A DNA stretch of 64,000 bases from Schoenoplectus triqueter (lineage: Eukaryota; Streptophyta; Magnoliopsida; Poales; Cyperaceae). The notes under the pieces were generated by a model. The model saw nothing but the letters and a program-made list of their open reading frames with translations. It searched no databases and was not told where the DNA came from. Position numbers and translations under genes: made by a program. Shown piece after piece: positions 25,725-59,832 of the stretch. The stretch covers positions 62,001 through 126,000 of the forward strand of contig CAXKVV010000276.1 of assembly GCA_964058805.1 (NCBI GenBank), in the 5' to 3' direction. The first letter of the stretch is position 1. Each line of letters begins with the position of its first letter.

Positions 25725-25892
25725 TTTTTTTGTAATTAATTATTAAAATAATTAGATTATTAAAAATAAGAGTGATAAAATATTATCTTTAAATTTACTG
25801 ACAATACATCACTGACAGTGACGCGGATGAAACATTTCACTGTCAGTGGCGTATTTGAGGAAACACGCTAATACTAGCGGCGTCTTTTGACA

Positions 25893-25900
25893 TTATAAAT
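25893..25900 (+). promoter_or_regulatory. TATA box of the MULE transposase
   Basis: TTATAAAT, followed by a CT-rich leader with repeated CTCATCTCAC, about 105 bp before the ATG at 26004. The palindromic repeats lie immediately upstream. Confidence 0.6.
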
Positions 25901-26003
25901 ACTAACCCTCCCGTCGCTCTCTTCATCTCACAAACAATCAAACTCTCTCACTCATCTCACGAAATATTTATTCAAATATCCAAAATTTTCATATTTCTTC
26001 AAA

Positions 26004-27560
26004 ATGAGATCTGATTTAAATTTTCATCCTACCGATGAAGAAAATTACACTGCAGAGGAACCGAGCAGTATTAGCTTTTCTGCCAAACCATGGTCAAACT
26101 GATTCATATTCAAATTAGGTTCAAAATATAATATCAAATTTTAGTCAAGGCGAATATTATTCGAACTATCCATATGATAGTAGCATTTATTGAAATCCAT
26201 ATTCATCTATTTACAATAATACTATAATTTACTAATAACTGAACACAACAGTTTAACCATGTCATATCTATAATTTTTTTTAGCGATAGTAATAATACTT
26301 ATTAAGAATAATTTTTTTAAAGATAACTATGATAATTTAGGTGATAATCTTAACTTAAATATTTTTTATGGTAATTTGAGTCTTGGTAGAACCGAAGAGA
26401 AAAGTACTATTGGTGGATGTGGTAATATTGATTTGACAGTATCAAAAGTCATTTTAATACCTGTAATGGAATATATTGATGATCAGGAGGAGAAAGATGA
26501 TCATGGTCCACAATATTAGAGTGAAGTAGAAACATGAGAGGATTACACTGAGCAATCTAATATTTCAAATGATGAATCTAAAAATGAGAAAATCCGAATA
26601 AGTGATACCACATAGTTTGAACAATTTTGAGATGTTTGACTGTTTAGCTGAAAATAAAATATTTACTTCTAAATCGGCTCTAAATTGGATAATTTATGAT
26701 TGGAGTGTTAGAAAAAATATTCAATGTTTGATACAAAAAAGTTATAAAACACGACTTGTTATGAAATACAAAGAAAAAAGTTGTCCTTAGAGACTATACA
26801 CTAGACCTGAAGAGGGCTTCACCATATGGAGGATCATTACAAATAAAAACCCCCACAACTATAGAAAATCACTAGAAGACCGCAAACACTTACAACTCAC
26901 ATTCAGTTTGATTTGCAAGATATGTTTGATAACATTTAAAGAAATGATCTCTCTTTAACAGTGTAACAAATCAATATGCTTATAGAAATGAGATATTTCG
27001 GTATTGCGCCAACGCATAATAAATTTTGGTGTGGTCGAGAAGGAGCAATCAAATAATTATTTGGCACTTGAGAATAATCATATGCATTGCTCTCATAAAT
27101 ATTATGGGCGATTGTTCAGACTACTCTAGGTACAAAATATAAAATATTGACGTGTAATATTTCAGATGACAATGTAAAAATGTTTAAATCCATAGTTTGA
27201 GCTTATAGACTGTGTATTGTAGCGTTCAAACATCTAAGATCCGTTATAATCATTGATGTTGGTGTCTTATCAGGCCATTATAAAGATAGATTATATATGG
27301 CGTTATTTCATAAAGAGATGACGAATGTTGAGGAAATAAAAAAAAAATGGCTGAATTTTTTTTTTAAAAGGTCGGAAGAAGATTAGAAAATGACGATAAA
27401 AAATCTCCTAATTTCGCTTCGTGGACACAAATTTATGATGGAGGACACCGATGAGGTATAATGACTAGCAATAGTTCGAAAACTCTGAATAATTTATTTA
27501 GAGTTAAGCGAATTTTATCGGCTGCGGCAATCTATTGTATTCAAAATATTAAAATATAAG
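26004..27560 (+). pseudogene. Decayed MuDR-like (MULE) transposase
   Basis: A first short frame at 26004-26102 (MRSDLNFHPTDEENY) ends at a stop. Further fragments follow with several stops. 26650-26950 has IFTSKSALNWIIYDWSVRKN, YKEKSCP, then RLYTRPEEGFTIWRI, matching the plant MuDR N-terminal domain (FxxKxxLxxAIxxY, CPWRLxA, GxWxI). 27225-27310 has AFKHLRSVIIIDVGVLSGHY, matching the MULE catalytic block (xFxxxRPVIxIDGxHLxGxY) with DG changed to DV. 27440-27540 has MTSNSSKTLNNLFRVKR, matching MTTNxAExxNxxxxxxR. The parts are collinear on the plus strand but not in one frame, so the gene is dead. Confidence 0.75.
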
Positions 27561-28863
27561 AAATACCTAATCACACGACATTAATATAAAAAAAGAAAGA
27601 GAGAAAGAAATTCTCCATGAAACAAAGACATGAAAGGGACTACCGGTTGGAAGGTGTCACTGGTGAGAAAAATCGGGTATGAAGTTCCATTAGTCCCGTA
27701 TGAAAATTTGAAGAAGAGATATTAAATAGTAATTAAATAATAATTAGGATTATTTGAAGGGTTTTTGTAACCCTAGATATAGATATAAATGTAATACACA
27801 TGGTTAATCCTCTTGTTTACTCATTTATGACCTAGGTACTATATTTGATCCTTTTGTTAGAACTTGTGTTTGTTGGTAAACCTAGTTTGCTGATAAATAT
27901 AATCATGTAGGGGATAATTCTGTCACAACATTAACTTGTGAATCCGTCAGCTATAATATAGATCATAGATCTAAGAATAATCAATGGATGAGGCTACCCA
28001 AGCTTATATATATTCAATTTAATAGAAAATAAGATCAATGAGGCCTCTGGTGAGAAGTACCGGTACTAGTCAAAACTGCAAAATACAAAAGCGGTTTAGA
28101 TCTATTAGTGTCATATAATACTCTAACAAAATTCATAATTAGTTGTTGAGGCTTTATGTTAAAAAGATGATAATAATAATAGTAATAAACAAAGCTATCC
28201 TATAGACTATTTTTGCTTATTTCTGTTTGAATGCACATTTCCCTTTCTTTTTCTTTTCTGATTTTTCATAATCTTTTCTTTTGTTCTTCCTCTTTAGATG
28301 CATATTATATTTATAAGGCTAACTGATGAAATAAAGAGATTAATATAAGAGTTAGTTGAAAGATTTTTATAACCCTCATAACTTTCAATTAAATAAAAGA
28401 ATAAAATAATATAATTAAACTCAAAGATAGTTGAAGTTTTTTTGTAACTCTTCTGATTCTTCTAGAAAGTTGATTGATTAGGCTTAATTCATTGAGAAAT
28501 AGAACAAAATTGGATCTATTTTTCAATGAAAAGTCAGTCCAAATAAGTGATAGCTTGGTCAAGCCAAGATCAGTTTAATGGCCATAAAAAAGTTATGCAT
28601 ATGTTTGGACTGTATACATAAAGAATATGCGGGAAAATCACTAAATTGAGCTTGAATGATCAAATTTATAGGGAACTATGACCAGAATCAGGGCTGGTAG
28701 TGTCTAAAATAAGCCTTAATGCAAACTAAACATTAAAATCAGTCACCGGCATCATTAGAGATACAAGAGTACTATTTTTACTGAAAATTATTTGGCTCAG
28801 TTCAGCTCCATCAGAAACCGAACTGAATGAGAGACCTTTAACACCATTATTTCTATACTGTAG
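27561..28863. other. Unassigned AT-rich DNA
   Basis: No confident gene. Open frames on both strands at 28726-28952 overlap each other and cannot be ranked from sequence alone. Confidence 0.35.
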
Positions 28864-29403
28864 CTTGTCCAAATTTTCTCCTCCTACAAGGATTTCAAGG
28901 TTATACAGTTTTCGTCGATGCTTGATGTATTTCAAGGTTTTTCAGATAAGGTAATCTACTGATTACTTCTTGCAGCAATTGTATGTACCCTCTTACAGTG
29001 CTTCAAAATAATCTTTTTCTAAATGAGGGTATCTCAAATTGCGTTCTTCCTGAAAAGTTGTGAGAAAAGTGCGTCGAATTCCCATTTTTGGAATGGAAAA
29101 TATCACATAATTGTATTCTTTTTTGTTTTTAATATATCTTGAATCTACCCCTAATTTATTACCCCCGTATTGAGATGGATAATGAAGAAAAAGGCTGTTT
29201 GGGTGTCTGTCTGAAGTATATAATTGTACAGTATTCTGCTGTTCTGGGGTTAGATGCAATACAATATTCTATTCAAGGATCTTTCTAGAAAAAAAATGAA
29301 GATGATGCTTTTTTACCTTTCACTTAGATTATGTTCCTCAAAATTATCATTTTTGAGTAATTACATGTTTCAAGTGAACCCTTAGATTCTATTCATAATG
29401 CAG

Positions 29404-29574
29404 GAAATGGAGGCCAAATTTAAGAACAGAGTACAGAGATATGTGGGGATATGGTGTTATGTAATGTTGCGGGACCCAGTTCACATTTACTACGACATGT
29501 ATTGGGATGAGAAATCAGGTTGGAAACCTGAACCACCACGCTCTAGGCAAGATGACCACCCCCCTTGGGCTTAA
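29404..29574 (+). CDS. Candidate terminal exon of an unidentified gene (or gene fragment)
   Basis: After a good acceptor (ATTCATAATGCAG ending at 29403) the frame is open for 56 codons to a TAA. It begins EMEAKFKNRVQRYVGIWC, contains DPVHIYYDMYWDEKSGWKPE and ends DHPPWA. The rich, non-repetitive amino acid mix (Trp, Tyr, Met, charged) looks coding, and the opposite strand is closed. A possible upstream exon at 28864-28950 (acceptor CTGTAG, donor GTAATC; frame starting LVQIFSSYKDFKVIQF) has the same strand and phase 0, but I could not link the two. I do not recognise the family. It may be the 3' end of a host gene, or a captured fragment. Confidence 0.4.
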   Translation, partial: EMEAKFKNRVQRYVGIWCYVMLRDPVHIYYDMYWDEKSGWKPEPPRSRQDDHPPWA

Positions 29575-29875
29575 CTCATGTATGCCTCTGCCTTCACGCA
29601 TATCTGACACAATTAGATGTAGGTTTTCTGATTTAGGGTTACAGAGAAATTCCTTCTCGTTTTCATTGAATATATATACCTGTTCTGAATGTAATCACAA
29701 ATCTGGAGGTCTAGGATTACAGTGCGTACTTATCTTTCTTGCCTCGAGCTCTTTGAATACATGGAGATGTTCAAGTAAAATCAGTCAGTAATTGCAACTG
29801 AACAGATCCAAGGTTTTCAATTAATGGAGCTAGGTCCCTCTTTATTGCTGTCAGAATAGAGATATCCATAATGAA

Positions 29876-30198
29876 TAGAGGTGGCAATCGGGTGGGTCAG
29901 GTCGGGTTCGGGTTCGAGTCTGGCTGGTCGGGTCAGTTTGACTTTCTGGAAGAAATCGGGTTGGGTCAGGGTCGGGTCGGGTCGGGTCAATTTACATGTT
30001 GTGTTTTTTCAGATCGTTGATAAATTTCGATTGGATTGAAGGTCATTTGATCTCGGATCGGGTCAGGTCAGGTCGGATTCGGGTCGGGTCGAGTCAGTTT
30101 GACTTTCTTAAAAATTTCTAAAAAATCGGATCGGATCGAGTTCGAATTCGGACGGGTCGGACGAGTTTATCAGGTCGGGTCGAATTCTGCCACCTCTA
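29876..30198. mobile_element. hAT-type MITE with GGGTC repeats (323 bp)
   Basis: The left end is TAGAGGTGGCAATCGGG; the right end, on the opposite strand, is TAGAGGTGGCAGAATTCG (11-bp perfect inverted repeat). Flanks ATAATGAA (29868-29875) and ATAATGAC (30199-30206) are an 8-bp duplication with one mismatch, as for hAT. The interior is dense in GGTCGGGTCGGG repeats. A more decayed relative ends near 54353 (CTGCCAACTCTA). Confidence 0.75.
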
Positions 30199-30512
30199 AT
30201 AATGACTGATGTTCTTGAGGCACTGGTGATGGAGTGCTTCATCCATTGATAATAAAAGGATACACAAATGTACCTTTTTACGACTTCTCATTCTTTCTTT
30301 TCTTGTTAATTTCTAAAATTATGGATTTGCAGAAAATTAGTTTTTTTCTTTTCTGAAAGTAGATATATATTAAAATAACTTCACCGTCAATACTCAATAG
30401 CATGAATTTGTGATCGATGTAGTATGTACATTGCTTAAGAAACTGATTAAAATTAAAGTCTTGCCAAGGAGTTGGAAATAGAAGATTAACACCAAAGAAG
30501 AAGTGTGAATTA

Positions 30513-30859
30513 AAAAAGGAGAAGGGATCGGCTGACAAATGGTTTATTTTTATAACCTTGACAATGACATCTAAATAAATATTAAAAAAATCTTAAAAAT
30601 GAAAAAAAAATGTATAGCTGTGTTTTTTTTAATAGTTCATTAAAGACCGTTAAATTGAAACCGTTATAAATTATATAAAAATTTGATGGTCTTTAATGGA
30701 CTATCAAACAATAATGAAATTACATGAAATTTGAATGACCATCAATCTAAATGTAGAAGAACACATCTATAAATATTTTTAAGTTTTTAAGTTTTTTTTT
30801 GTATTTATTTAGAGATCTATTGTTTGTCAAAAATACTCATTGTCAATGGATCCCCACTC
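30513..30859. mobile_element. Tourist-like MITE family A, copy 2 (347 bp)
   Basis: Same termini and internal landmarks as the copy at 24370 (TTCATTAAAGACCGTTAAAT, ATGAAATTTGAATGACCATC). TTA is present at both borders (30510-30512 and 30860-30862). Almost identical length to copy 1. Confidence 0.7.
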
Positions 30860-31030
30860 TTAAAAAAATTGTCATATGAAGTGAGAAGAGTATAAGACCA
30901 AAGTACCCTTGTTAGGTTGTTATGTGATACGCATTACCCATTCGGGTTGTTTTCTTACAACATATTACTCATCTGGAAATATACTCAATTGTGTCGCTGA
31001 ATCAATGAGTTCAGGACTTGGGAACGTTCG

Positions 31031-31213
31031 CAGCCTTTCGAATCAAAAAATTGGTTCGAAGGATTTTCGAGCTGTCAATTTTACATTGAGATTCGTAACA
31101 ATCATTAAAAGTGAATCTACTCTGAATCTATGAGATATGTTAAAAATATGAATCTCGATGCAAAATCAATGGTTTGAGAATCTTTCGAACTAATTTTTTG
31201 GTTTGAAAGGCTG
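31031..31213. repeat. Inverted repeat with about 70-bp arms
   Basis: CAGCCTTTCGAATCAAAAAA (31031) on the left pairs with CAGCCTTTCAAACCAAAAAA on the opposite strand at 31213. The arms continue to about 31100 and 31146. Weaker symmetry extends to about 30995 and 31250. Probably a MITE; the superfamily cannot be told. Confidence 0.6.
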
Positions 31214-31960
31214 TGAATCTACTCCGAATCTACAAGTTCATCGTTGACGAGAGCGCGACGGAGGCCAGAGAAGTGGAAGTTATTTTTCACGTCCTAGGGG
31301 AAGCGTTCATACAGGGAACATGAGAAACAATAGAAAAATGATATGAAAAATGGAGGCAGGCGTGAGAGAGTGAATGCATATCTCCTGTGCTAGACCAAGA
31401 TGCTCAAACCAGAGAATATCATCGTATTATAAATTCTGCCTTGTAAAAAAATTGTATATATTAATATCAAATCCATGGAAGTGAATAAAGTCGTTAGTTC
31501 ACAGCTTGAGATTTAAGATCACTCAGTGGGGCAAAACTTCACAAGTATATTGTTTTGGCACACAACATTCCTTTGCTTCACACTGGGATTTTCCAAAGGA
31601 AAAAGAAAGAAATTTTTCAACAAAAAGAAAAGTAAATGGAACCAAGCAAATGCACAACGATTAACGACACATTATATTTCTACTGCTCTACATCACAACA
31701 GAGCATCAGGCGCTCCACTGTTTTTTTTAACCAACTTCCACATCCCATTGAGTCAGTTAACAAAAAGAGGCTCACAACATTTTCTATAGCTGGAATATTA
31801 TAGGCATCACCAGTGTCACCAAAAAAAACAGCAGGAGATATCTCTAGAATCTAGATACTGCTCACCTATTTCAACAAACAAAAAAGCAGGAGGTATCTCT
31901 GCTCTTGATGCTTTTTTTTCTCAGGATGAATATTCTGTCTGCCTTGAATTTCAGTGATGC

Positions 31961-34900
31961 TCAAGCAGCACAGTCATTCGGCCTATTAGAAGAGCCATTT
32001 AATCGCCTCTCTTGTTCCAGGTACCATTTATTTAACCGCTCCTTAGAAATTATGACCTGTTGATCATCACAACATTCAACATCAACTATGCGGTTTTCTT
32101 TTCTTTCAAGAAATAAGAAGACTACGACAAAAGAAGTGTGCATGCTAACTAGGTCATACTAACGCAAAAAGTGACAATATTCAATGTTATGTTGGACCAA
32201 TTGTAAGTTTTAGCTTATAATATGTTGAGCATTGGTACGAAGGAAAGTTGTCTATGTACCTGTTTATTCCAGTCTGTTCGCATAGTTATTACCAATAGCA
32301 CAATAGTTTGTACAAGTGTTCCAAGCAACATGCCTACCCAAATACCCTGCAAGCATGAACATATTGTTAAAAAAATTGGTAAAAGCTTATGATCAGGGTT
32401 AATGTCACCGTAAACTATATACTTTTCAGCTTAAAGCTATTGTTAAAGACTATATTGTGCATGTGGTATGTAGAATAGTCCAATTCTTTTTGCTCTCAAA
32501 CTCGAAGTTCTTGATCTGGTACCTTGAGATTGATACAAGTGAGATTGATACAAGCACTATCTTTCACTCAAACAAATGATAGAGATCCCATCAGTTATGA
32601 TATTAAATGTCTCATTTGAATGATATCTCACCAAAAAACAACTAACTTCAAGTTAGATTTTGACTCTGAGATTTGTCCAATTTACAATAGAGACTAATAT
32701 TTGGCATGAGTACCATAGAATGCAAAGAGCAAATGGGAGAAATTTCAAGGACCAGAATTACTGTATGGACAACTAATAGAAGGTTGCAACCGTATGTCTA
32801 CACACAAATACTGGCGCATAGTTAATGTTGATCCTAGACCCATATATTAAGAAAAAGAAAAAGAAAAAGAAGAAAGGGAAATCCATAACATGATGGTTTT
32901 CTTTTAGGCTAAATAACTTACATCCACATGATATTTGAATCCATAACCAAGGAGCGCTCCAAGGGGAATGCCAACTAAGTAGTAGCATGTTATGTTGACA
33001 TACGCCACTGCACTTTGCCATCCAGCACCAACAGCAACTCCTGAAGTGCAAAAATTCATACAAATTTAGAATAGTACTTATTCCACTAGTCAAGTAATTA
33101 TTTTATGAAATCTCCAATCAAATTGATCGCTGGGTACCTGTGTTCTTTAAATATTATTATTCGAGTAAGAAAAAAAACTATCATTTTTAGTTACACAAAC
33201 CTGACAGCACTGGTTGCACACTATTAAGCAAAATCGAGAAGGCAAGGAGGGGCGAGAGATGTGAAACAGCCTTTGCCACATTGATATCCTCTGTGAATAT
33301 GTATGCAAGATTTCCTCTAAATACCAAGAAAACTACAAAAAGAACGGAGCCGATTGCCAAGGAATTAAGCACAACATTTTTTATAGCGTATTTCGCTCTC
33401 CTTGCACTCCCTGCACCGAGTTCATTTGCCACACGCACCCTATAATCAGAAAAAGGATCGATGTTAGGTATGAGATGCAGGGTTTGTGATGTTGTTTTTC
33501 AATTAATTTCAAAATAATGAATTTGGCAGCCAAGGGGGGAGATCAAACTGTGCAGTACGTGCAATATTTGGGAGGATTAATACATAAATTATATCAGAAT
33601 TCTGATCCAATATAGCCTTTTCTTTTGTTCATTGTGTTCGGATGGAGTTGTCAACTACAAGAAATCTATATGCTGGCTGTTGTTAAAAATAGTCAAAACA
33701 TCTTGCTATAAAATAGAAGTTTTGTGTAATGACATTTGAAACAGCAAGCAGGCTATAATTGGACTTGGTAGTTGGTGATGAATTTGCAGATAATTTTACA
33801 GATGCAGTTTGATTATACTGGTTTTCTAACAGAAACTTATAATAAGGTTAATTAACAAATTTAGTTCTAGATGAAAAGCAAGCAAAACAGTAAGAGAAAT
33901 ACCCAGCAGCTGCCAAGAAGCCAACAGAGATCATCATCTCCCACCCATTAATGTTCAGGCTACATCACACAAAAAAAAATGCAATTCAGATGAATTATTA
34001 TTCCTTAAAATTACAAGAACATTTTCTTCAATTACGATGGATCAAAGTTGAATATATTCATACCAGATCGAAAGAGCATCTATTGCAACCTCAGCATTCT
34101 TCATGTAACCGGTGAGAAGAATCAAGATGGTGTTGTACCAGAGCTCCAAACTACAGGGAGAAGCCAAGAACCAATCAATTTATCAGGGCTAAGGATCCAT
34201 ATTGTCGTTACAACTAATGAGAGATATATCCTGTTTCTACGGAAACTTCTTTGAGTTTAAGATGACAGTTCTATAAATTAGACAAATGATGTTGTCCAAT
34301 CAATTGGTATAGGTGGTTACTGTATTTTTTGCCTGCATAGAAAGGCATCATCATCATTATTTGCAACTAGTATCATTATTATTACTGTTGTTATTATTAT
34401 TATCATCGTCATCGTCATCATCGTTGTCATTATCCTCATCATCATTACTATCATTATCATTATCACTATTACTATTACTATTACTGATTTTTGATATTTG
34501 AGATCTCTTATCTCTATGATTTTGGATTGTGTTTCATTTCTCGCCTACCCCAATTTATTTGGGATTAAGGCTTGTTGTTGTTATTGGTGGTGTTGTTGTA
34601 TAGAAAGGCATCATCAGTTACTTCAAACTAATAAGTAGCAAGTGCAGTACCATAGCATCACACCAGAAGAAATTGAAAGCTTCACAATTGCTGTGAGATC
34701 GGAGAATGCTTTCCATGAAAACCCAGTCCAGGTCTCAGGGCACCCACCACAAAACACAAATGCAAGCTGTCCAAAAACCGGGACCCACATGGCCAGAATC
34801 ATCGACCCCATGACCCCCGCCATTCCTAAATTCAGCTTAATTGTCATGAACCATGACAGAAACAAATGTAACCCCAGATTTAACATGGCAAGATAGGTTA

Positions 34901-37900
34901 TGACGATGTTTCTACTTTGTGCCTGGAGGTACATTTGAAGGGTGAAGGTGTAAACATAAGAGAACAAGACGGGGATAAACCACATGGAGATGACACCAGC
35001 CACTTTAGCAATCTCGGCATCCTGGCCGAGAAGTCTTAGAAGTGGGTCTGTGAAGACGAACATAGGGAGGAGGCATATAGCAGCTACTGTAAGGATTATC
35101 CAGGAGCGCTGGAGATAGATACCAAGCATGTGGTACTGTTTTGCACCATAAGACTGGCCACACAAGGTCTCCAGGGCACTTGCCATTCCTAGCTGAAAGG
35201 ATAAAAAAGTATAAATGTTAAGAGCTGTTTAATTAGATGGAGAATACATTTGCCATGGATTTTGCAAGCACAGCTGTTTCATGAAATGGAGAATAAATTT
35301 GTCATGGATTTTTGCAAGCACAAGCAAAAAATAAGCTAGCTAAATGATCCATGATAGATTAAAAAAAAACTAATGCTGAAAACAAACTAAATACTAATAA
35401 AATTTTCTGAGATAAGATAAATGAAAAAACGCAAACCCATGTAAGCAAATGCAATACAGTTTCGATGGAACAAAAGAAATGCATAAAGGCACATTATATA
35501 GCTACATAGACAATACCAATGCATTTGACTCGTAGATATGTGCTAGAAATCATGAATCATTATCAGGTAACAATCATGTAAATTATTTTCTGATAACACT
35601 GACTAAAAATTCATTTCAGTGGAAATACTGGTGAGATGTTCAATATATTAAAGAGAACTCCATGGGTAGCATAATTTCTATCAACTTTCTTCCATCAGAT
35701 TTGGGACTGCAATAGTTTTTGCATCAGAAGATTGATGATTTTTTTTCCTATTCTTTTAATAAAATATTTTTCATTTCACTTTATTATGTTTATCTGGTTA
35801 TTTATGTAGTTGTTCAGTGTTAAAAAAGATGTCACCAAATGGTTTAACATTCACAAAGATTTCTGTAGTAAATCCATCACACTGTACAAAAAGCAACATC
35901 CCAACTTCAAAGAGCAATTAATTAGCAAACTTTCCACATCAGCTAATTAAAGGCACACAATAAACCACTATGAAACTGGAATGAGCCTGGAAATAAGGAG
36001 AAAATCAACGTTCACCTTGCTAAACAGAAGCAAAAGAACAAATACAACTGAAAATGAAGTTCTATTGGTCATTTTCTTTAAAAAAAAGAAGAAAAGTACC
36101 AGAAACAAATATGGAATAAAGAAAATATGAAAATGACATACACCAACTACTGGGCCAGGTTCAATCTGACAAATTTGTTTACTTTCAAATTAGTGAAACT
36201 TGTGATGTATCTTGGATGCAGTCCGAAAATATAAAGTTTAAATAACTAAAAATTGCACTACTTGTCTTACCAAAGCCATGTTATGAAGTAAGAGGCTAAC
36301 AGCACTTTACTAGTATTTTGGGTTATGGCGCTTCGTGGTATCTAACTTATCAAAATAACAGAACAAATTTTCACTTGAGAAAAAATGCACCTGATAAGGA
36401 CGTGGCATAAAAAAAAGGACATCCAATATCCCCCAATAATTGTCCTTCAATAGTTCAATTACCCTTATAAACAAGGGCCATCACAGTTCTAAAGGCAGGC
36501 CCTGAAATATTAGTTTTAAGAAGGTGAAGGCTCTTTCCTAGTGTCGACATAATTACATTAAGACAACTTTAGTGGATACTTTGTACAGGCATCATGCAGT
36601 TTTAAAGGTATGTTCTTGACATAGAAAGGGGTTGTATAAATCGATTGATTTTGAAAGCTTATGTAATGAGTGGTTTATTTGAAATGCTAACAAAGTCCTT
36701 TTATCCTTTGACTAATTAATATGTAGGTTTAATTATGAACATTGGAGAACAATAATACATTACTCACTTCAGATACTATTTCAGTCTCCTCAAACTTCTA
36801 TTGGCGTCACTAATTTTTTCAGAAAAAATGACTTAGCAACCTCGGCAACACATATAAAAAGAATTATGGTATTTTTAGCCGTGTTACATTGTTTTAATTA
36901 ATTACGTGCTTGCCAAAAGGAGATACGATCTTCTAATTTTAGAACTTTTCAGTTTAAAATCCCATTCTCATTGCTTTCATTTACATTGGTATCCCATATC
37001 CCAATCAGTGTAGTCTGTTTACAGTGCAGAAGAAAGAAACGGTGTTTGAAAGTGTGGGTTTTTGGAACTGCATCTGTGATTTATTCTCCTTGGAAGAAAA
37101 TTAAATTCATCTCGATGGAAATAAAAGAAGCACATGGAGATGGAAAAATTTGTCGGATTTCCTCTTTCCTTTTTGTAATGATCGAACACAAGTACACAAC
37201 GCAATTCGAATCAAGACTAGTAAAAGATAAATAATTCGCGATCCAATGAGAGATTACGTATAAATTCACCATAGTTAACCAGCGATACGAGTTCATACCT
37301 TCACGTGGTGGGTATATCTTTATTATTTATTCATTTGATCGGATCATGGCAATGCCGTGGTTGGTGTGAACGTGCATGCTTCTATTCCTCACTCTCACTG
37401 AGCGACTGAGATATGGATGAAAGCAGAGATACAAATGGTTGTAAAAAAATACAAAAAAATGTGCCAAGTCAAACGCCAATGTGCAACGTTCGGAAGCATA
37501 AAAATGCTAAAAGTAATATGCATGTCCATGTGAGGTTCCAAAAAAATCTATACGTCTATGTGAGTTAGATGAACAGAAAGTTGCTCATTTTTTTAACATA
37601 AAAATATATTGCTATTATTTTTTGTATGATGTAGAATATTACTTAAAAATTTTAAGATATAAAATATATAAAAATATTAATATTGATACGGATAGTTTTC
37701 GATCATCGAGATAAGAGTTCGATGAGCTTTTACTCTTCTTTATATACTGTCTTGTGTGTATATAAATCTGTATTTAAAAAAAAGTTCCCAACATATCGGG
37801 ATATGTCTTATATAGGCTCCATTTCGTGCCATATGATCGTTGAACCGTTTCAGCCGCCGTCTTAAGTATGATAGTCATGACACTTAATGTCGTGCATGTG

Positions 37901-39785: not shown

Positions 39786-39819
<34 letters not shown>

Positions 39820-42800
39820 TGTCAAAAAATTTCCGATGGGAAGGGAGAAGTCACGCAAAAATACAAAAGCGCTAATAATGAGGCACCTCAGACTGGAGGG
39901 AACGTGGAACTGGGGAAGGAAAGGATTAAAAAACGAATCACGAATATCCTAGAAACAACCCGAGATATACCAACAATGCAAATAAGTTTGCTGAGTATAC
40001 TGACTACGATTGTTTTCATTTCTTAGATTTATGAATTTGAAATCAATTTTTGTTACTTTTGTATGTAGTATTATTCAATTGTCTGCCGAAAATTTAAGTT
40101 TGAATAAACCTCATACTTATCAAGTCTGTAAATTTGTGGATAACTCGCATTTAATGTGGCAGAAAGTTGGCACATGCACCGGATAACATGGACCTCGGGA
40201 GTTTGGTCAGTTTTTATTATTAATAAGTATTATTAAATTAATATTATTAAAAATAAGACTGAAAACCGTAAAATTTCAAATATACGAATGGCAGCGCGCC
40301 ACTGGCAGTGGCGCGGACGAAACGCGCCACTGCCAGTGGCGCGCTTCAAAAAAAAAATGAAACACCGCGCAACGCAAGTGGCCTGCGTGCATTTTGTATA
40401 TATAAGAAGGAAACGCGCCACTGGCAGTGGCGCGTTTTGTAAAAAAAAAAAAACCGAAATGCGACACCTCCAGTGGCGCGTTTCGTAAAAAAAAAAAAAA
40501 AACCGGAAACGCGCCACTGCCAGTGGCGCGTTTCGTAAAAAAAATATAAAAAATGAAACGCGCCACTGGCAGTGGCGCGTTTCGTAAATTCAAACAGCGC
40601 GCCACTGGCAGTGGCGCGCTGCCATTCGTATATTTGAAATTTTACGTTTCTCACTCTTATTTTTAATAATATTAATTTAATAAATCATATTATTACTAAA
40701 AGGCCGAGTTTGGTAGACAGTTCGCCTCTTCAGATTAAAACAAATTATGAAATTATTCCTGACAAAGCAAATAATTGTCCTTATTTTATTTCGTTTAAAT
40801 AAGAAAGTAGCATATGTACGAATCATTAATTTACTCGGCCGAGATTCCGGAGTTCAAAACAAATCCAGTTTGGTAGACAGTACTATATCTGTGTATAATA
40901 CTCCTATGACAAAGAATATAATAATAACCATCGATTTTGGACATAATATACCCGAACGGATTATTTGATTATCTCAAATTCTCAATTCATGTACATTACA
41001 ATTCTAAGCTTCTTTATTGTTTAACAAAATTGAAGGAGCTGATCAGATTACCCCATAAAAACCAAGTGACAAGTGACAACCTGGACTAACAAGCAGCCAA
41101 GAAAAGCATTAAAATCAATTTCCTCATCGGAGTATATCTTGGGGAAATGATGCAAAAAAATTTATATCGCTAAACATGAAAAGAAAGAATAATGCAAGTT
41201 GATTAAAAACCTGCACGAATAACAACAAGTGCTCGACTAGGACTGTAAATGAACTGAGTTCAAGTGAATCAGATTTAGCTCAAACTCAACTCATAAAAAT
41301 ATAAATTAAGTCGAGCTAAGCTTGTAAAACATTTTGAACTGAAAATCTAACTCAAAATCAGCTCAGCTCGTTAATATTCAAGCTGACTCACGATCTAATA
41401 CATGTGTTTTGACATAATTTTGTCATTTAAAGTTGGTACATCTATAAAACTGATACGAAATTGATACATCAATAAATTATGTTTTCAATGATATCTTTGT
41501 TGTACTAATTTGAACGAGTGGACTGACAAAAAAATATCGAATTAAATATATAAATTAAGTCATTAGCGAGTAAAAGGCATCGCTACATCGCTGAGATAAT
41601 GGGAGAAAATGAGACGGATTATCGAGTTAGAGTTCGAATGAAAAAAATATAAACTATGATAATTCAAGCTGAATTGAGTAACTAGTTGAATCAATTTCAA
41701 TTTAAACTCAACTCATATAACTACGCGACTAAATTAATTTGAACCGGAATTAATTCTGAGATGAACCACCAACTCTAGCTTTTTTACACAATCCTATATT
41801 CAACATATAAGTGGGGCAGGCCAGATACCGATTTTAAGTCAAATATTTGTATTTACGTAATTCAGCTGACAGAAGAAAACGAGTTATTTATCAGTTGGTG
41901 GAACGGTTGAAATGAAAATAAGTTATTTATCACGGGAACGGTTGCTTCAACTGTTCAAAATGAGAAGCACGAGTGTTCGGCACCCTGGAAAATAAAGGGA
42001 ATAATTCGTAACGCTAGAATTTACTGTCCAATCAAACAACATTCTCGTGTGAGTGATTGATTTAAGGCTAATGAGAGAGATCCTAGTGGGTTATTTTCAC
42101 TATCTCGACAATGATAATTAAAAAAATGTAATAAAATAAAATTTTATTGATATATTTTTAACTTATAGATTATAGTTAGTGTCAAATCAAGTGCAAATGC
42201 ATAATTTTAATTAGCGGGATCAATAATCGAATTATAATAATTTATCGGATTCAAATCTATTAATTAATCGGATACTAAATAAAAAAATAATAATTTAATA
42301 TATATTTTTATCTAATAAAAAATTATTAAAATAATAAAATATAAAACTCAAAATAATAAATGAGAGTTTACAACATTGCTATATGACCAGACTTAGCCCC
42401 AGAAAAAAAAAGGCACACAAAATAGAGAAATCCACTGCTCACAGTCAACAGTCTGAAAGTCTAGTATTTAACCTACGACCTAAGCTAGAAATGGATCTCA
42501 ATCAACATGGACGGAGGAGCTATGGTCAGCCCCACCTTCCACTTTTTTTTTCTTTGGGGCTACCATTTTCTTTTTCTTTTCTTTTGATTCTTTTCTTTTC
42601 TTTTAGAAAAGGAAGAACAAAAAGAAGAGTATTTCAAAAATCGACCTTTGGAGGGGCACTCCTCGGAAAAGCGAGTCAATATAAACCCGACTAATATAAT
42701 GATGATTTTTTTCCTTTAATGACTTTATATTTTAGAGATTTTGAATAATTTTTTTATTATTTACAGTACTAAATATTTTTTTCTCAATAAAAATTAATTA

Positions 42801-44572
42801 GATAATATAAAAAAGATCAGAAATTAATTTTAAGGAGGTCAGATTCGCTAAATCTTAACCTAAAAATATTATTTTTTTAAAATCCAGAGGGGGTCAGTTG
42901 ACCCTCCTAGACCAACATAGATCTCCCCAATTGTCAAAAAATAACTAAATTGTATAAAAACTGAAACACTATCGATCTATAAATTCAAAAATATATTTAT
43001 AAATTTATTTTTATTTCAAATATTTTTTATTTATTTTGTTTACAATTTCAATATCAAAATTATCAAAATAACCCATTGTCAAGGAATCTCTCCACTTAAT
43101 TTAAATGGGAATGAATTTGTTTTCTCAAATTATTGCACCAAAATGTTGATTCAATGAGAAAAAATTAATTAATTTGAACTTTTTTCCATGAGCGTTGAAA
43201 ATGTGATAGTTGGTGAAACCAATCTCTTACCCATGTCATTTGATTTCCAAAAGATTTTGTTAAATACTTCAATGTATAGTTAATTTTGATCTTTAGAAGA
43301 GCTTAATAAAGTCCGAACAGTCTCATTGAATTTTTATTTTCTCAATGGATAGTCCGAACAACTCTAAGCCGAAGGTAAAGGCTAAAGAGGATAAATTTTA
43401 AACGTAAAATCTGTCAAAAGCACAACACCACCGAATGGATCGATGGAATCCTCTATTCACCAACGACAACTGTAACAAATATTTTTATCCAACGACAACT
43501 GTAACAAATATTTTTATTACGATAATTGTGTTATATAATGCCACCTAGGATCAAGCGTCCGACTGGAGTCCTAAAAAAATTAACAAATTGATAAACATCT
43601 AAATATCTTCGTGAGTCCTCAAAAACTTAGTATGTTTTCCTCTTCAACTGTATTTGATGTCGGCATAGTTTCATGGAATGTTAGAGAAACAAAAAAAAAC
43701 GAACTTAAAGTCTGCATATCAAGACAAACTAACTTTTAAAGATTTTTCAAGTTCTTTTACTTTTACGCCGGTAATTTATTTACACAAAAATACTGGAAGA
43801 AGTCGCTGGGAGAAGGCCGTACAAAGACCTTTCTACGAACAATTCAAAAGCCTGCTTACTTTTTACATTTTATTTGGAAATTCTCTCGGAGGTTGGGAGC
43901 ACGTTCCTTTGACGGAGCAACAATGGCGTACTCTTCGGTCAACTCAACTCCATGCTAGACCAAACAAGATACAGCACAAAAGGCGGAAATACCTTGAAAT
44001 GACTAGCGTTCTAATAACTTCTACTGTTTCATCCTGGAGCTGGAGCCAGTTCATTGCAAAATGCAAACTGGACCCACTCGTCAGAATTATTTTCCACGGA
44101 TCGAGTTATCAAATGAAATCTAACTGAGCGCATTTCTAAACAAAATGATATGAACAAAAAGGGCTTGTACTATACCAATGCCACAATGGCTCACCGAAGC
44201 AACTGAAATCAGTTGAATTCGAACTCTGAGACTGGGAGGAAGAAAAGCACGTACCAGGATGCCATTGGCGAAGCGCATGAACACAGTGGAGACTATCGCA
44301 TAGGCCGCGAGCTCAGTGGATCCGATGTGGCCGATGAATGCCTGACTGATCACTGTTACGCCAAATGTCGAGAAACGAGTGAAGATGGAGGGGCCCGCCA
44401 CGATCCACAGCTTCTTGTTCTCCTCTAGGATCTTCCTCCCCACACTTAGAGTCTCCTCTTCTTCCTCCTCGCCTCTATCGATCGCCTTAGTCGCCAGCAA
44501 AGGCGCCTCAACTCCATTTCCCTCCAACAGCTTCTTCGTCAGCTGATTTCTCTCCTCGGTGCCACTCTTCAT
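31961..44572 (-). CDS. MATE / DETOXIFICATION (DTX) multidrug and toxin efflux transporter
   Basis: Eight coding exons on the minus strand: 44572-44255, 35192-34651, 34150-34064, 33959-33903, 33439-33201, 33040-32922, 32346-32260 and 32056-31961. They sum to 1,545 nt: 514 codons plus stop, the normal plant MATE size. All junctions are GT-AG and in frame. The N-terminus is acidic (GEEEEEE). Family motifs include the first MatE domain ([43 protein letters not shown]), [39 protein letters not shown] (spanning exons 2-3) and, in the second domain, [45 protein letters not shown] and [10 protein letters not shown]. About twelve hydrophobic segments fit the family. Known role: proton- or sodium-coupled export of secondary metabolites or toxins at tonoplast or plasma membrane; the substrate cannot be told from sequence. 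Intron 1 is 9,062 bp and full of transposons; intron 2 contains a retroposon. No frameshift or stop, so it is likely functional. Confidence 0.95.
34337..34617 (+). mobile_element. Retroposed element with microsatellite core, inserted in MATE intron 2
   Basis: A perfect 17-bp direct repeat ATAGAAAGGCATCATCA (34337-34353 and 34601-34617) flanks 247 bp. Inside, a long ATT/ATC microsatellite (34361-34487) leads to a unique tail ending CTACCCCAATTTATTTGGG, ATTAAGGC, (TTG)n. That tail resembles the 3' end of Au-type SINEs or RTE-type LINEs of plants. No Pol III A/B box is visible, so this is a 5'-altered or truncated copy. A second copy, on the minus strand, occupies 63757-64000. Confidence 0.7.
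37925..38343. mobile_element. hAT-type non-autonomous element family B, copy 1 (419 bp)
   Basis: Terminal inverted repeats CAGTGGCGGATCCAG (left) and CAGTGACGGATGCAG (right, other strand). The interior matches, in reverse orientation, the element at 62410 (TTATTGAGAAAAAATATTTA, TTACGTAAACGAA, GTATCCGATCAGTTAATGGG). Eight-base flanks no longer match. It lies in MATE intron 1. Confidence 0.7.
38700..38820 (+). promoter_or_regulatory. Promoter-like block with two G-boxes and a TATA box inside MATE intron 1
   Basis: CACGTG occurs at 38702-38707 and 38814-38819 and TATAAAAG at 38789-38796, in a locally GC-richer segment (38690-39050) unlike its surroundings. The strand is set by the TATA box. A 95-codon frame (38709-38996) overlaps but has no recognisable domain and begins upstream of the TATA. 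It could be an enhancer-like intronic element, a relic promoter, or chance. Confidence 0.35.
39788..39816. repeat. (GA)n microsatellite
   Basis: About 14 GA units, in MATE intron 1. Confidence 0.9.
40208..40705. mobile_element. Palindrome-array MULE, near-intact non-autonomous copy (498 bp) in MATE intron 1
   Basis: Terminal inverted repeats of about 100 bp share TTATTAAATTAATATTATTA, then AAATTTCAAATATACGAATG, at both ends. A 9-bp direct repeat GAGTTTGGT flanks it (40199-40207 and 40706-40714), as for MULEs. The core is an array of 21-bp palindromes: CGCGCCACTG, one base, CAGTGGCGCG. Six perfect copies start at 40295, 40323, 40414, 40510, 40559 and 40598, with two decayed ones near 40365 and 40460. 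The central base is G or C. Linkers often read TTTCGTAAAAAAA. It has no coding capacity of its own; reading frames in all phases are artefacts of the array. Confidence 0.8.
41238..41779. repeat. Possible decayed hAT-like repeat (AGCTCAACTC-rich)
   Basis: TAGGACTGTAAATGAACTGAG at the left and, on the other strand, TAGAGTTGGTGGTTCATC at the right, enclosing GAGTT/AGCTC-rich sequence. Composition is typical of plant hAT remnants, and a similar tract lies at 60400-60620. The flanks do not match; low confidence. Confidence 0.3.
42188..42928. mobile_element. hAT family B, copy 2, split by a ~340-bp foreign segment
   Basis: 42188-42365 matches the left part of the element at 62410 (AATCGAATTATAATAATTTA, TTAATTAATCGGATACTAAA). 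42705-42928 matches its right part (GACTTTATATTTTAGAG, TTTTTTTCTCAATAAAAATT, TAGATCTCCCC). Between them, about 42366-42704 is unrelated, contains a CT/TTTC-rich stretch and is probably an insertion. Termini are decayed. Confidence 0.6.
42945..43095. mobile_element. Tourist-like MITE family A, copy 3 (right half only)
   Basis: The right end is intact: CAAAATAACCCATTGTCAAG then GAATCTCTCCAC and TTA at 43096-43098. The left half is missing; it abuts the hAT copy ending at 42928. Confidence 0.55.
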
Positions 44573-53272: not shown

Positions 53273-53336
53273 GCTATTATATAATAGTATTTTGTTCGAT
53301 GCAGCAGGAAAATGAGGAAATTTAGATATTTATTTA

Positions 53337-54049: not shown

Positions 54050-54353
54050 TTACAAGAATAAAATTTGGTTCAGACGGTTTGGGTTCGGATAGATTGGGTA
54101 ATTTTGATTTTTTTTTGAAAGAAATCGGTTTGGATAGAATTATGTTAGGGTCAGATCGAGTTAAGTTATAGGTTTTTTTTTCAAATTTTAAATTGATTTG
54201 ATTGAATTATAAGTTATTTGATTTCAAATCTAATTAGATGGGTTCATATCATATCGAGTTAATTTTATTTATTTTTAAATATATAAGTCCAAAATAAAAT
54301 AAATCAGATGAATTTCTAAAATCAGGTGATCGGATTAAATTCTGCCAACTCTA
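54050..54353. repeat. Decayed relative of the 29876 hAT MITE
   Basis: GGTTTGGGTTCGGATAG, then GGGTCAGATCGAG, and an end AAATTCTGCCAACTCTA similar to the right end of the 29876 element. No target duplication visible. Confidence 0.4.
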
Positions 54354-56430
54354 TTTGTTTGCATACAATAAAAAACAGATAAACACATAATCACATGCAT
54401 TTTCTCTCCTTTTTTGGATCTGTTCGTACACCCCTGTCACACCTCTGAATAAATTTATTATATTCTAGTAGTAGCCAATAGACAAGTTAAAAATGAGCTG
54501 CTCCAACCATAATCACTCTCATCTTTCCCACAAAGTAACAAGGAACAAATCTCCCGTCCTATGAAAATGCTGTACGTACATCTTGAAAAAAGAAAATACT
54601 ACCCAAATATATACACACTATGCCACTATGGTTCACTACTTCAAAATCAATATTATTCATGCTCAATTGAGTTTTATGGTTTTACTAGTTAAGTTGAACT
54701 CACCTAACTTAATAACAAAAATATTTTATTGTGTAAATTTAGTAATTTCTTAAATTCCTTAGAGATCGAATGTGAAATAAATTTTTATCCTTTTGAGTAT
54801 TACAAAATTAATAAATAGACAATTCAATTCCTGTGACTTCTTTTCAGAAGAAATATTTTATAAAATCATTTCTCTGTCCAAATTTCTTCTTAAGAAGATA
54901 GTTATATTATTATTTTAAATTTATATTCAAATTGATTGTGCTTTCAAAATTTTGACCTATGAAAAGAAATAACATTATGGAGCAATAATTTTAGTGTAAT
55001 ATTTTTTTGGCTTTCTAAATAATTTAGTAAAATGATTTTTTAGAAATTTTAATTTTTAAACTTATTTTAACCATAAAAGTGTAATGTTATAAAAATAAAT
55101 GAATATATCTATATGCCATCTCCTGACCATTATCAAAATGTCACGTAGTTTTTAATTAAACGTGCGGTCCCTTATGCGGCGTGTATATACGGTCATGAGG
55201 ATGCAAAATATAATTCTAGTCCGGTGCTTTCTTCGTTGATGTCCACTTAATTTGATAGGCATATTTTTCGGACGTCAAAATGCACCTCGCTTTGCCACGC
55301 TTGTATATTTAGCTTTTCATCTTCCTAAAAGATAAACCATTTTTTGATTATTTTGTCTACTTGATTTTGACTGAAAGAAATAATAGCTTAAATTTTTTTG
55401 AAAGAAATAATAATTTCTTCTTATTTTTTTTTCTTTTTTTTTTTTGGAAAAATTGACACTGTCCTCCCAAATTTGTACTTAATTGAGGCTAAATTGAATC
55501 GTTTTCTATTCGTAGGCCCTTTAATTGAAGATTGATACTTGTAACAACCTTTTAATGGTGAGCAATTAATATTTTTTTCTTTTTAGCTGGCCTGAGTGGT
55601 TCAAAAGTGGTTGGTTAGACACTTGCGCTGCATTGGCTGGGAAGTCTTGTGAGATTTCTGGAGCTTTAACTTTAGCTGTGGAAAACAAATTCATTAGTTA
55701 GGTCCCCTCCAAGATAAAGGATTCATTTGTAAGCTTATACTTTTATAATTATTTAAGGGCCAAAAGAAATAAAAAAAAAGCAGCAGTAAATATATTTTGT
55801 TTTCTGACCTATACTTGTATAATTTGCTTGCTAACACAAAAGAGTAATTTTGTTAATTTACTAGTACAAAATAGTACTTTTTTTCTTGCTGACACTAGAG
55901 AGTAATAAAATAAATAGCATTTTGTTTGCATATGCAGTATGGATGGAATTAATTTGATGACATGATGAATGCTTTGGATGACGATGCATGCTGAATCATG
56001 GGTTTTAATAAATACTGTACTTCCTAATACCTCTTTTACTAATTCAGAAAATGTTTTTATGATTTATTATCGAATATGTCTGATTTTTATCTTGATTTAA
56101 TTATCTACAAATTTGTGTCAATGTTGGATTTTGGTTATTGGGACATTATGGTAAATGATGATTACTTTTTTATGTCATTTTGAGGGTGAGTGGTTCAGCT
56201 CTCGGTTGCGGGAAGAATCTAATATTTTGTTTCAGTTTTTCTACCTATGATAATGGGTGTATTTTGTATTTTTAAGGTGGATGTAAATTTGCATATAACG
56301 GGTGTAATTACATTCAACATAGTTAATTATATCTAATTATATTGGGAAGCAATGAGACAGGACAAAAGACAATATTAGTATGAGGGATAAATAGGTCTTT
56401 ATACATAACAATATATATATATATATATAT
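54354..56430. other. AT-rich intergenic DNA
   Basis: No gene. Near 55588 the sequence GGCCTGAGTGGTTCAAAAG is weakly tRNA-like but no cloverleaf forms. Confidence 0.4.
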
Positions 56431-56840
56431 AGTAAATCTACTATGAGCTTAAGCTCACGAAAGACCTCCGTGAGTTTAGCCCAAAAAATATATCAAATGA
56501 TCTCTAAATTTTGATTTTTCAATCTCATTAAATTCTTCATATTGAAATCTTACGGGGTACAAAAATTTAGGATGTTTCGAATTTTTTAAGTCATTCTTTT
56601 TAATTTTTAAAAATAATTTATAAATATTGAATATATTATTATTATTTTTGGAGCTGATTTTCAAAAATTGAAAAGAGCGATTTAGAAAAGTCAAAACATT
56701 CTAAATTTTTGTACCCCATAAGATTTTAATATGAAGAATTTAATGAGATTGAAAAATTAAAATTTGGAGATCATTTGATATATTTTTGAGCTAAGCTCAC
56801 GGAGGTCTTCCGTGAGTTTAAGCTCACGGTAGATTTACTA
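56431..56840. mobile_element. Long inverted-repeat element C1 (about 410 bp)
   Basis: The two arms of about 200 bp are highly similar. AGTAAATCTACTATGAGCTT at the left mirrors AGTAAATCTACCGTGAGCTT on the other strand at the right, with TTGGGGTACAAAAATTTAG-like blocks inside both arms. The loop is at about 56626-56650. It lies between (TA)n tracts, suggesting insertion into TA. Transcription would give one long hairpin RNA. Confidence 0.8.
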
Positions 56841-56855
56841 TATATATATATATAT

Positions 56856-57263
56856 AGTAATATATTGTGAGCTTAAGCTCACGGAGGCCTTCCGTGAGCT
56901 TAACTCAAAAAGTAAATTAAATTATCTATAAATTTTAATTTATCATGCTCATTAAATTCTTTATATGAAAATCTTGTGGGATGCAAAAATTTGGAGTGTT
57001 TTGAGTTTTAACCCACCGTTTTTAATTTTCTAAAATGATGTTCAAATATTAAATATTTTATTATTATTTTTAGAGTTAATTTTCAAAAATTAAAAAACCA
57101 TGACTTAAAAATCTCAAAATGCTTCAATTTTTTGCATCCCATGAGATTTTTTTATAAAGAATTTAGTGAGAATGAAAAATTAAAATTTGGAGATAATTTG
57201 ATATGTTTTTTGAGTTAACCTCACGGAAGACCTCCGTAAACTTAAACTCACGATATCTTCACT
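56856..57263. mobile_element. Long inverted-repeat element C2 (about 408 bp), tandem to C1
   Basis: Same family as C1, more diverged: AGTAATATATTGTGAGCTTA at the left mirrors AGTGAAGATATCGTGAGTTT on the other strand at the right. It is separated from C1 by only a (TA)n tract (about 56839-56855). Shared landmarks are GTGAGCTTAAGCTCAC and CACGGAGGCCTTCCGTGAG. Confidence 0.75.
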
Positions 57264-57556
57264 GTATATATATTTCTCATTTTTCTTGTCGAAAAACAAT
57301 ATTATTTTTTATTCATACCAAGTCTTTGTGTTTTAAATCCAACTAGTCCGCCGAACAAATGCTCCTCAGTGAAGATTAATTTCTTAAGCCCCCGACCCTT
57401 AATTCATGCGTCGAACAAGACCGATAAGATTAACGGGCAACAAACCAATAAGAGATAATTAAAGAATAATTTATAATTTAATAATATATAATTTTTATAA
57501 TGATCAATCTCATTATTTATAGAAGAATATAAATTAATTTTTTTTATAAATAAACA

Positions 57557-57578
57557 TAATAATAATAATAACAATAAG

Positions 57579-57620
<42 letters not shown>

Positions 57621-57662
57621 AATAATAATAATAACAATAATAATAATAATGATAATAATAAT
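57557..57662. repeat. (AAT/AAC)n microsatellite
   Basis: About 35 trinucleotide units, mainly AAC in the middle and AAT at both sides. It accounts for a spurious poly-Leu frame on the minus strand. Confidence 0.95.
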
Positions 57663-58877
57663 ATCTAGTCTTTGTTCGGGAAGAGAATAATTAAGGGATA
57701 AATTATCACAAATTGATCCTCCTCGCAAACAAAACTCTAACGTACAATTTCATATTTAAAATAATCTATTGAGGGATTTAAGTTGGATGGACGATAATAA
57801 AATAAGAGGATCTTACAGTGTTAATTTGTAAATCTCGTTGAACTTAGACTCTATAATAATTTCATTGGCCTTCATAGTTCATTGGGCCTTTTTCTATCAA
57901 CAACAGTTCGGAATTTACCAAACTAACAAGACCTACTTTAACAAATTCATCCCCTCCCCTTTTAACAGAAAAATGATTTTCATCCGGTCCCACAAAAAAA
58001 TAATGCTAACTAATAATTCATTGTCATGGCCCATTGCTTTAATGATTAATTATATTAATCCCATCCTTGCTATTAAAAATTTAATCATAAAGTGCCCAGC
58101 ATATTGCACCAGTTCTTTATCCCCTGCAAGTAGTACAGTTAATTAAATTATCTTAATTGATCATATGTTCCTTGTCAAAATAAAATAAAATAAAATATGA
58201 CATGTCAATGATTACTAGTTACAATCTCTACAATTAGCCCACTAGTGTTTGAGGTAAAATTTTCCTTAACAGTGAGGTTGAGTGCCGATTGAATGAGCGG
58301 GACAGGAGTGAGACAACCGCCGATTGAGTGAATGAACAACCCCCCTCTTCTTTCTTTGCCTTGTTCGTTCATTTCCTCCGATCAATTGCTTTGTTTTGTT
58401 TGACAGTCATATTATATTTATCTAGGCATTATGGGTTATGTATTATTGAAAATCAAACAAACCAAACAAAAAGAACCAAAAAAAGAAAGAATTGTTTTGG
58501 ACTGGGTTTTGTTAGAGGCTGAGCGGTGGAGAATCTTGTTCATGAAATTCCTTAGAAGACAAATATCTTTTGTCAATGAAAAGAAAATTATTTTTTTATA
58601 CGAACTAATATTTTCAAAAAATATTTTTTAAGTTCATATATTATAAATGTCTTTTAATATTTCAAGATGCGTCTGACAAATGCACCATTCAATTAAAATT
58701 ACCTTTTCATATTCAATTCATAAATGCTTGCTCAAGAGTAATGTGATTTGTAACTTTTTCTTATAAAATCAAATGATTAGCATACAAAAACCTGCTACAT
58801 CAAAAATAATGAATTTTTTTTTAAAGTAGCATTTTGGATAAATTAAAAAATAATATCAGAATACACCCCACGAATAA
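57663..58877. other. AT-rich intergenic DNA
   Basis: No gene or repeat boundary that I can support; open frames here are short and without motifs. Confidence 0.4.
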
Positions 58878-59010
58878 ATTTTTGATCATTTTTTTATTGA
58901 AAAAATGAGAGTCAAGCTCTTAAAATTTATAATTGTCCATATAAATCTTTCATTCGGGTTTCGAACTCACGATATCTCATACAGAGGATGTTGCATTTTG
59001 CTAGTAAATC
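58878..59010 (-). mobile_element. tRNA-derived SINE, copy 1
   Basis: On the minus strand: A-box region TTTACTAGCAAAATGCAAC, B-box GAGTTCGAAACCC (58957-58969), a body ending AAGAGCTTGACTCTCATTTT and an A-rich tail. Same family as the better-preserved copy at 61376. Confidence 0.65.
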
Positions 59011-59423
59011 ATAGACTGATTCTCAATTTTTATTTTTTAATCAGAAAAAAATACACAAATACAAGTAAAAACCGAGTTGTCCATTGATTCTCAATATTTT
59101 GCAAGCATTCATCGGACCTCATCGCAGAAAAACGGACGTATCCGTTCCTTCCAAATGGAGAGAAGTATCGAACTTTGCAAAGCCAATATACAGTGTGTGG
59201 CAAATTCAAATTCTCTAGAGTGATTTACGTGTACAAATAACTGTTCAAACTATTTTCGTAAATTTAAACGGCGTTATTGTGACGGCATTGTTTGAGATAT
59301 AAATTCGACGGCTGTTGTGATTTCAGAAAATTACTGTACAAATATAATATTATAGAGCATACATACTCGTGTGTGGTGCTAATTTCGAAGAGGAATCAAC
59401 ACCATTCACGAGATTTTTTTAAA

Positions 59424-59832
59424 TATAATAATTACAAAAAACATATTATTAATAATAAGAGTGATAAAAATAAAATTTTAAATCTATAAATGACAGGTGA
59501 CATTTTTACTGAAACGTGCAACTGGCAGTGGCGTGTTTATTTCCTACAAATACCAATCGCGTATGTATCTATCTATATATGTATTTATAAAATACGTTTT
59601 TAGGCAAACGCGCCACTGATAGTGGTGCGTTTCAGTAAAGACGCCACTGACAGTGACGCGTTTCAGTAAGGACGCCACTGACAGTAGCGTGTTTCAGTAA
59701 AGACGCCATTGACAATGGCTCATTTACACAAAGATACCACTAGCAGTGGCGCATTGTCATTCGTAGATTTACAATTTTTCTTTTATCACTATTTTATTAA
59801 TAATATGATTTTTATAATTATTATATATAACA
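59424..59832. mobile_element. Palindrome-array MULE, decayed copy (about 409 bp)
   Basis: Terminal inverted repeats of about 80-90 bp (TATAATAATTACAAAAAACA at the left; TATAATAATTATAAAAATCA on the other strand at the right) continue into the AGTGATAAAA block of the 25725 element. Six decayed palindromes of the CGCCACTGNCAGTGGCG type lie between 59513 and 59758, in TTTCAGTAAAGACGCCACTG units. No clear target duplication. Confidence 0.7.

Follow-up and report, generated by a model that had tools for sequence, protein, structure and literature searches.

What purpose do the tandem palindromes in this stretch of the Schoenoplectus triqueter genome serve? The stretch, hereafter the window, comprises 64,000 nucleotides (C271:62001-126000, in an assembly of 82.1 Mb and 2086 contigs), and a sequence-only reading had singled out three loci in it for their shared termini and palindrome arrays. 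Both features were borne out by scanning the window against shuffles and by aligning the termini: the three loci are one family of Mutator-like elements (MULEs), here family 1, represented by two complete non-autonomous copies and one decayed, truncated autonomous copy. Our analysis adds a convergent gene for a plant mobile domain (PMD) protein with palindromes of its own, two sister families, and a match, in predicted structures, between the PMD and the fold of the anti-silencing protein VANC21. We see a somewhat better than even chance that the palindromes are binding sites of a dimer of the element's own PMD protein, which would counter silencing as VANC proteins do, with each family protecting only itself.

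The family-1 palindrome, CGCGCCACTGNCAGTGGCGCG (21 bp), has six exact matches in the window and nine when up to three mismatches are allowed; 100 shuffles gave a mean of 0.00. All six exact units belong to the 40.2-kb locus; the 59.4-kb locus holds four with two to four mismatches, and the 25.7-kb locus decayed units only. The AATAAGAGTGATAAAA block is exact at 25765 and 59454 and recurs with two mismatches on the minus strand at 40646, although taken alone it is near chance (shuffle mean 0.31; three occurrences reached in 1 of 100 shuffles). The features are as follows, with the strand given where one was assigned.

25724 to about 27532, plus strand: decayed, right-truncated autonomous family-1 copy with terminal repeat, promoter and broken transposase (alignment to the old autonomous copy L029; tblastn)
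25805 to 25825: decayed palindrome 1, five mismatches (palindrome scan)
25833 to 25853: decayed palindrome 2, CACTGTCAGTGGCG, placed by eye; the scan put it one base off
25864 to 25884: decayed TATA-proximal palindrome, eight mismatches, with the TATA 30 bp on (scan; spacing as in the 18 promoters described below)
25894 to 25901, plus strand: TATA box TATAAATA
26004 to 27532, plus strand: remains of the MULE transposase gene, ATG at 26004, broken frames (tblastn)
40199 to 40207: left target duplication, GAGTTTGGT
40208 to 40705: complete non-autonomous family-1 element, 498 bp (termini and perfect 9-bp duplication)
40295 to 40618: array of seven palindromes, six exact, at 40295, 40323, 40414, 40460 (four mismatches), 40510, 40559 and 40598
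40706 to 40714: right target duplication, GAGTTTGGT
59401 to 59409: left target duplication, ACCATTCAC
59410 to 59840: complete, older non-autonomous family-1 element, 431 bp (termini and perfect 9-bp duplication)
59515 to 59753: decayed palindromes at 59515 (three mismatches), 59609 (two), 59640 (three), 59671 (four) and 59733 (six)
59841 to 59849: right target duplication, ACCATTCAC

The autonomous copy is recognised by its likeness to L029. Positions 25724-26079 align to that copy with a score of 176, against a maximum of 53 among up to 300 random window segments, and the alignment spans the terminal repeat, the palindromes, TATAAATA and the coding start; tblastn then recovers residues 120-664 of the transposase, spread over several frames and reaching about 27532. 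The claim that the 25.7-kb array lies between a terminal repeat and a TATA box leading into a decayed MULE transposase is thereby upheld. A right terminus for this copy was not found, the best score being 35 against 39-53 at ten control places. Some details fit the family less well: the right terminus of the 498-bp element reads GGCC rather than CAG, and the first recognisable palindrome of the 431-bp element lies 105 bp, not 87 bp, from its left end.

Do the arrays belong to such elements elsewhere? Genome-wide there are 562 exact copies of the family-1 palindrome and none of a backwards-read control. In 20 stretches sampled around the first listed palindrome clusters, 21 arrays were found, 18 with both family-type termini and three with one; every sampled array thus has at least one family-type end, and arrays mostly outside MULE-type termini, a refuting condition of the sequence-only reading, were not seen. 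The usual terminus is CAG(A/T)TTTT, and the terminal inverted repeat (TIR), of about 87 bp, lies outside the first palindrome. The target duplication measures 9 bp; its two sides agree at no fewer than 8 of 9 bases in 19 of 20 elements (the 18 two-terminus arrays and the two complete window elements), whereas 3 of 870 mismatched flank pairs do so. The other refuting condition, a different transposase class in full-length copies, was not seen either: the one at C42 encodes a MULE transposase. That copy is 7.6 kb long, with a 10-bp duplication by eye, and its exons, joined by eye, give two convergent genes. One, of two exons, encodes the MULE transposase (PF10551, E 1.6e-13; SWIM, E 1.4e-7); the other, read from the opposite end, is a multi-exon PMD gene (PF10536, E 3.1e-62; 211.2 bits against a cut-off of 34.9). 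The nearest named protein to the transposase is at 51% identity, from Rhynchospora tenuis. At both ends of the C42 copy there are palindromes between TIR and TATA: allowing up to six mismatches, the transposase end has four and the PMD end two. Nor is the arrangement peculiar to C42: in a comparison of 37 of the listed PMD places with 106 of 149 MULE places, which left out most intronless PMD and many weaker MULE hits, 21 of 23 MULE/PMD neighbours (same contig, at most 15 kb) are arranged convergently at a distance of 2.4-3.0 kb, and these include the family-2 copy C1323.

This layout recalls MuDR, which makes a 9-bp target duplication and whose second gene, mudrB, does not encode a PMD; we know of no palindrome arrays in MuDR. 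What the elements share with it is the convergent gene pair, the terminal-repeat promoters and the size of the duplication. The available text of PMC3310237 describes, for the maize element, two convergent genes, promoters in the terminal repeats and a transposase-binding motif in the TIR.

Where exactly do the palindromes sit? In 46 of 53 recognised family-1 termini the first base of the first palindrome lies 87 bp from the terminus. Genome-wide, AATAAGAGTGA is followed by an exact palindrome within 17-47 bp at 149 places, with a gap of exactly 32 in 97 of the 100 listed, and the reverse order occurs at 0 places. On the inner side, the start of the last palindrome precedes TATAAA(T/C)A by 30 bp in all 18 promoters compared (17 for the transposase gene and one for the PMD gene), which were chosen for having palindromes. 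Between these two anchors, terminus and TATA, there are two to five units. Upstream of MULE hits more generally, 28 stretches yielded 14 family-1 arrays, three of family 2 (L041, L048, L050) and one of family 3 (L038); the other 10 (L040, L042-L046, L053, L055-L057) lack all three palindromes, although only L042 and L043 show an element boundary and the others may miss the promoter. L042 and L043 (C643, C652) represent an array-less MULE family, whose copies are identical over 475 bp and each start beside a TA microsatellite. Upstream of other PMD hits (L070-L073, L076, L077 and L079) none of the three palindromes was found, so they do not accompany all PMD genes or stretches. Intronless PMD open frames, mostly of 658 or 680 aa and some interrupted, occur at C271:187501-188295, on the window's contig and outside the window, and at many other places. 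They form a group apart from the MULE-PMD families and may be Gypsy-borne PMDs, a label that appears in the available text of PMC5418596. One intronless PMD gene has, upstream, a different palindrome, GTGGGTCCCAC, twice and 246 bp apart (L079:448-464 and 694-710). We take it to resemble a TCP factor site and have set it aside.

The sister families show what is kept and what is not. The family-2 palindrome, GCGTGAGTTNAACTCACGC (C1323, C1629, C1241), has 81 exact copies genome-wide against 0 for its control and is present on both the transposase side and the PMD side. In its non-autonomous copies the termini resemble GGA(T/G)TTTTTACTT, the first palindrome is at 87 bp in 12 of 14 recognised termini, and a duplication of at least 8 of 9 bases flanks 5 of 9 elements, some termini being uncertain. 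Downstream of the transposase gene of C1241 (L075:2589-2876) there are five further family-2 palindromes, each with one changed base and the last four 73 bp apart. Family 3 has the palindrome CCGAGTTTNAAACTCGG, with 295 exact copies genome-wide and again 0 in the control, at both ends of the MULE-bearing copies C56 and C26 (9-bp duplications by eye); at C818 and C2081 it precedes PMD exons. From ATTTTAGTAAAT to its palindrome the gap is 61 at 58 of 80 places and 60 at nine more, and the one element tested for a duplication has it. Family 2 is assigned to the MULEs by its transposase (PF10551, E 3.3e-17), and family 3 by homology, its transposase being 42.4% identical to that of family 1 over 370 residues. 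Between families, transposase identity is 38.6-42.4%, PMD identity (family 1 against family 2) 31.7%, and the TIR likeness of families 1 and 2 is weak, being reached by 2 and 10 of 1000 shuffles. The palindromes are 17-23 bp long with a one-base centre in all three families, and among 219 control pieces selected to lack these motifs, an exact odd palindrome of such a kind turned up in two, the same one never twice in a piece. Layout and symmetry have therefore been kept and the letters replaced.

Could the palindromes simply be ordinary promoter elements for a host transcription factor? The exact TATA spacing fits such elements, and the GC-rich family-1 sites, with their CACGCGC-like core, presumably resemble FHY3/FAR1 sites, a weak lead only. 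One host factor, however, leaves unexplained why three unrelated sequences occupy the same place in three sister families and why gene-less copies keep them, and we regard this account as very improbable.

The mutation pattern bears on a further alternative. The 103 palindromes taken from family-1 non-autonomous stretches carry 153 changes, of which C>T or G>A account for 128, with change rates of 8.4% at CpG, 7.2% at other C/G and 0.5% at A/T. The signature, clear in these copies, is not so in autonomous family-1 promoters (61 of 119, mostly at the outer bases, where there are fixed variants); family 2 has 35 of 54. The non-autonomous pattern agrees with dense methylation of every sequence context, such as RNA-directed DNA methylation produces; taken alone, it does not demonstrate anti-silencing. 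Mirrored double changes, observed against expected, number 11 against 8.07, 7 against 15.63 and 5 against 1.73, and do not clearly show that symmetry is under selection. Conservation figures from a stack preselected for a recognisable palindrome and terminus are biased and were set aside. As tandem perfect inverted repeats, whose C>T changes in all contexts suggest silencing, the arrays might be by-products of slippage- or hairpin-driven duplication, bound by no protein and at most a source of small RNAs. Passive expansion is not expected, however, to produce exact distances to terminus and TATA or three sequences with the same one-base centre, nor did the control pieces repeat an odd palindrome; we consider this origin very improbable.

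Which protein, then, would read the sites? Domain models of the PMD match the VANC21 fold in prediction, and the transposase has no such match. VANC21 belongs to the VANDAL MULEs of Arabidopsis and counters silencing in a sequence-specific manner. According to the available text of PMC5735166 and PMC10398659, the VANC proteins of VANDAL21 and VANDAL6 bind family-specific motif arrays in their own non-coding DNA, the motif differing between related families and the arrays gaining and losing units. Our elements have in common with this system a MULE, an extra gene and family-specific arrays in non-coding DNA that vary between related families, together with a second protein whose predicted structure has the VANC21 fold and which would bind its arrays as VANC does. 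Differences are equally apparent. VANC motifs are short (YAGTATTAY; AGTTGTCC/AGTTGTAC), lie in one orientation and occur in introns as well as upstream, whereas ours are palindromes of 17-23 bp. VANDAL TIRs are degenerate, whereas the TIRs here are good and the extra gene is a PMD. Compared by sequence with PDB chains, the PMD has no meaningful relative, and a domain search of the second protein at an E threshold of 0.001 gave PF10536 alone and no VANC domain (DUF1985/DUF287). With good TIRs and no VANC-type domain, the elements are not filed as VANDAL. The sequence-only reading knew of no described MULE with such arrays, which calls for some adjustment: VANDAL MULEs do carry arrays of short protein-binding motifs, as parts of PMC5735166 describe, and what stands is that those run in one orientation and are not palindromes beside terminal repeats.

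The transposase is the more serious candidate for a different binder, with the palindromes as subterminal sites for pairing and cutting the ends and any promoter role secondary; the MuDR terminal repeats and the Spm subterminal repeats offer models. The sequence-only reading had proposed transposase-binding or promoter sites. Several observations favour the transposase: families 1 and 2 both have their first palindrome 87 bp inside the terminus, gene-less copies keep arrays at both ends, and a DNA-binding domain of the MuDR type, PF03108, is present in the transposases (E 1.8e-8 in family 2; E 0.0024 in family 1, below cut-off). Divergence of the transposases between families is also as large as the change of palindrome could call for, and maize MURA binds a motif of about 32 bp within the TIR, according to parts of PMC3310237. 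Transposition, however, needs neither an exact distance to TATA, as seen in 18 of 18 promoters, nor family-2 palindromes downstream of the gene, and it is the PMD, not the transposase, that matches a protein crystallised on array DNA. We judge end-pairing sites possible but doubtful, and the PMD most likely ranks ahead of the transposase as binder, although both could bind.

How might PMD binding work? A dimer of the element's own protein, with the PMD as first candidate, would occupy the tandem palindromes and keep both terminal promoters active and free of host methylation. Non-autonomous copies inherit the sites, and protein and palindrome would have diverged together in each family, so that protection extends only to self. 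Binding, dimerisation, the identity of the binder and the anti-silencing effect are the most likely reading of an observed element structure with two genes, of palindromes at regular positions and spacings, of three families with three palindromes, and of a predicted fold match.

Other PMD systems offer partial parallels. MULE-borne PMD-C genes occur in grasses and Amborella, where the available text of PMC5418596 speculates on an anti-silencing use and does not mention palindromes; those genes are described as transposase fusions, whereas here the PMD gene is separate and convergent. The Arabidopsis host PMDs MAIN and MAIL1 are likewise PMD proteins tied to a promoter motif, being linked to the DOWN motif with direct binding not shown in the accessible parts of PMC7156037 and PMC9899485; the motif printed for MORC1, CATGCAGTTT, matches none of the three palindromes. 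Our literature search found no account of MULE palindrome arrays or of a PMD-VANC fold link, although most subscription papers lay outside it, so that the fold link could have been published already.

Elsewhere in the window we noted a tRNA-Lys gene with anticodon TTT (20305-20378, plus strand), open frames that by eye resemble MATE/DETOXIFICATION transporter exons (34623-35186 and 44120-44572, both minus strand) and, also by eye, a G-rich stretch with GGGTCGGGTC-type short repeats (about 29886-30200). For one pentatricopeptide repeat (PPR) gene the match with the highest listed identity, which is not the one with the best E-value, comes from Carex rostrata (56% identity, covering 55% of the query). 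By these nearest named proteins, of this gene and of the transposase, the host would be a sedge or close relative; MatK_N had no match here, nor in any control genome.

What would this mean for PMD proteins at large? We give about even weight to a broader proposition: that the PMD is a VANC-fold, sequence-specific DNA-binding domain, that the PMDs borne by MULEs form a second lineage of anti-silencing proteins directed at their own elements, this one with TIRs and with the palindromes as binding sites, and, by extension, that host MAIN and MAIL1 would bind promoter motifs directly. Arabidopsis PMD proteins affect silencing and expression, and a use of PMDs by transposable elements against silencing has been speculated upon, according to the available text of PMC5418596 and PMC8616336. 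Candidate DNA targets of PMDs are now concrete, in three related families of one genome, and a predicted fold ties the domain to a protein whose complex with its DNA has been crystallised. Both the function of PMDs and the question of anti-silencing by their MULE-borne members thereby become directly testable.

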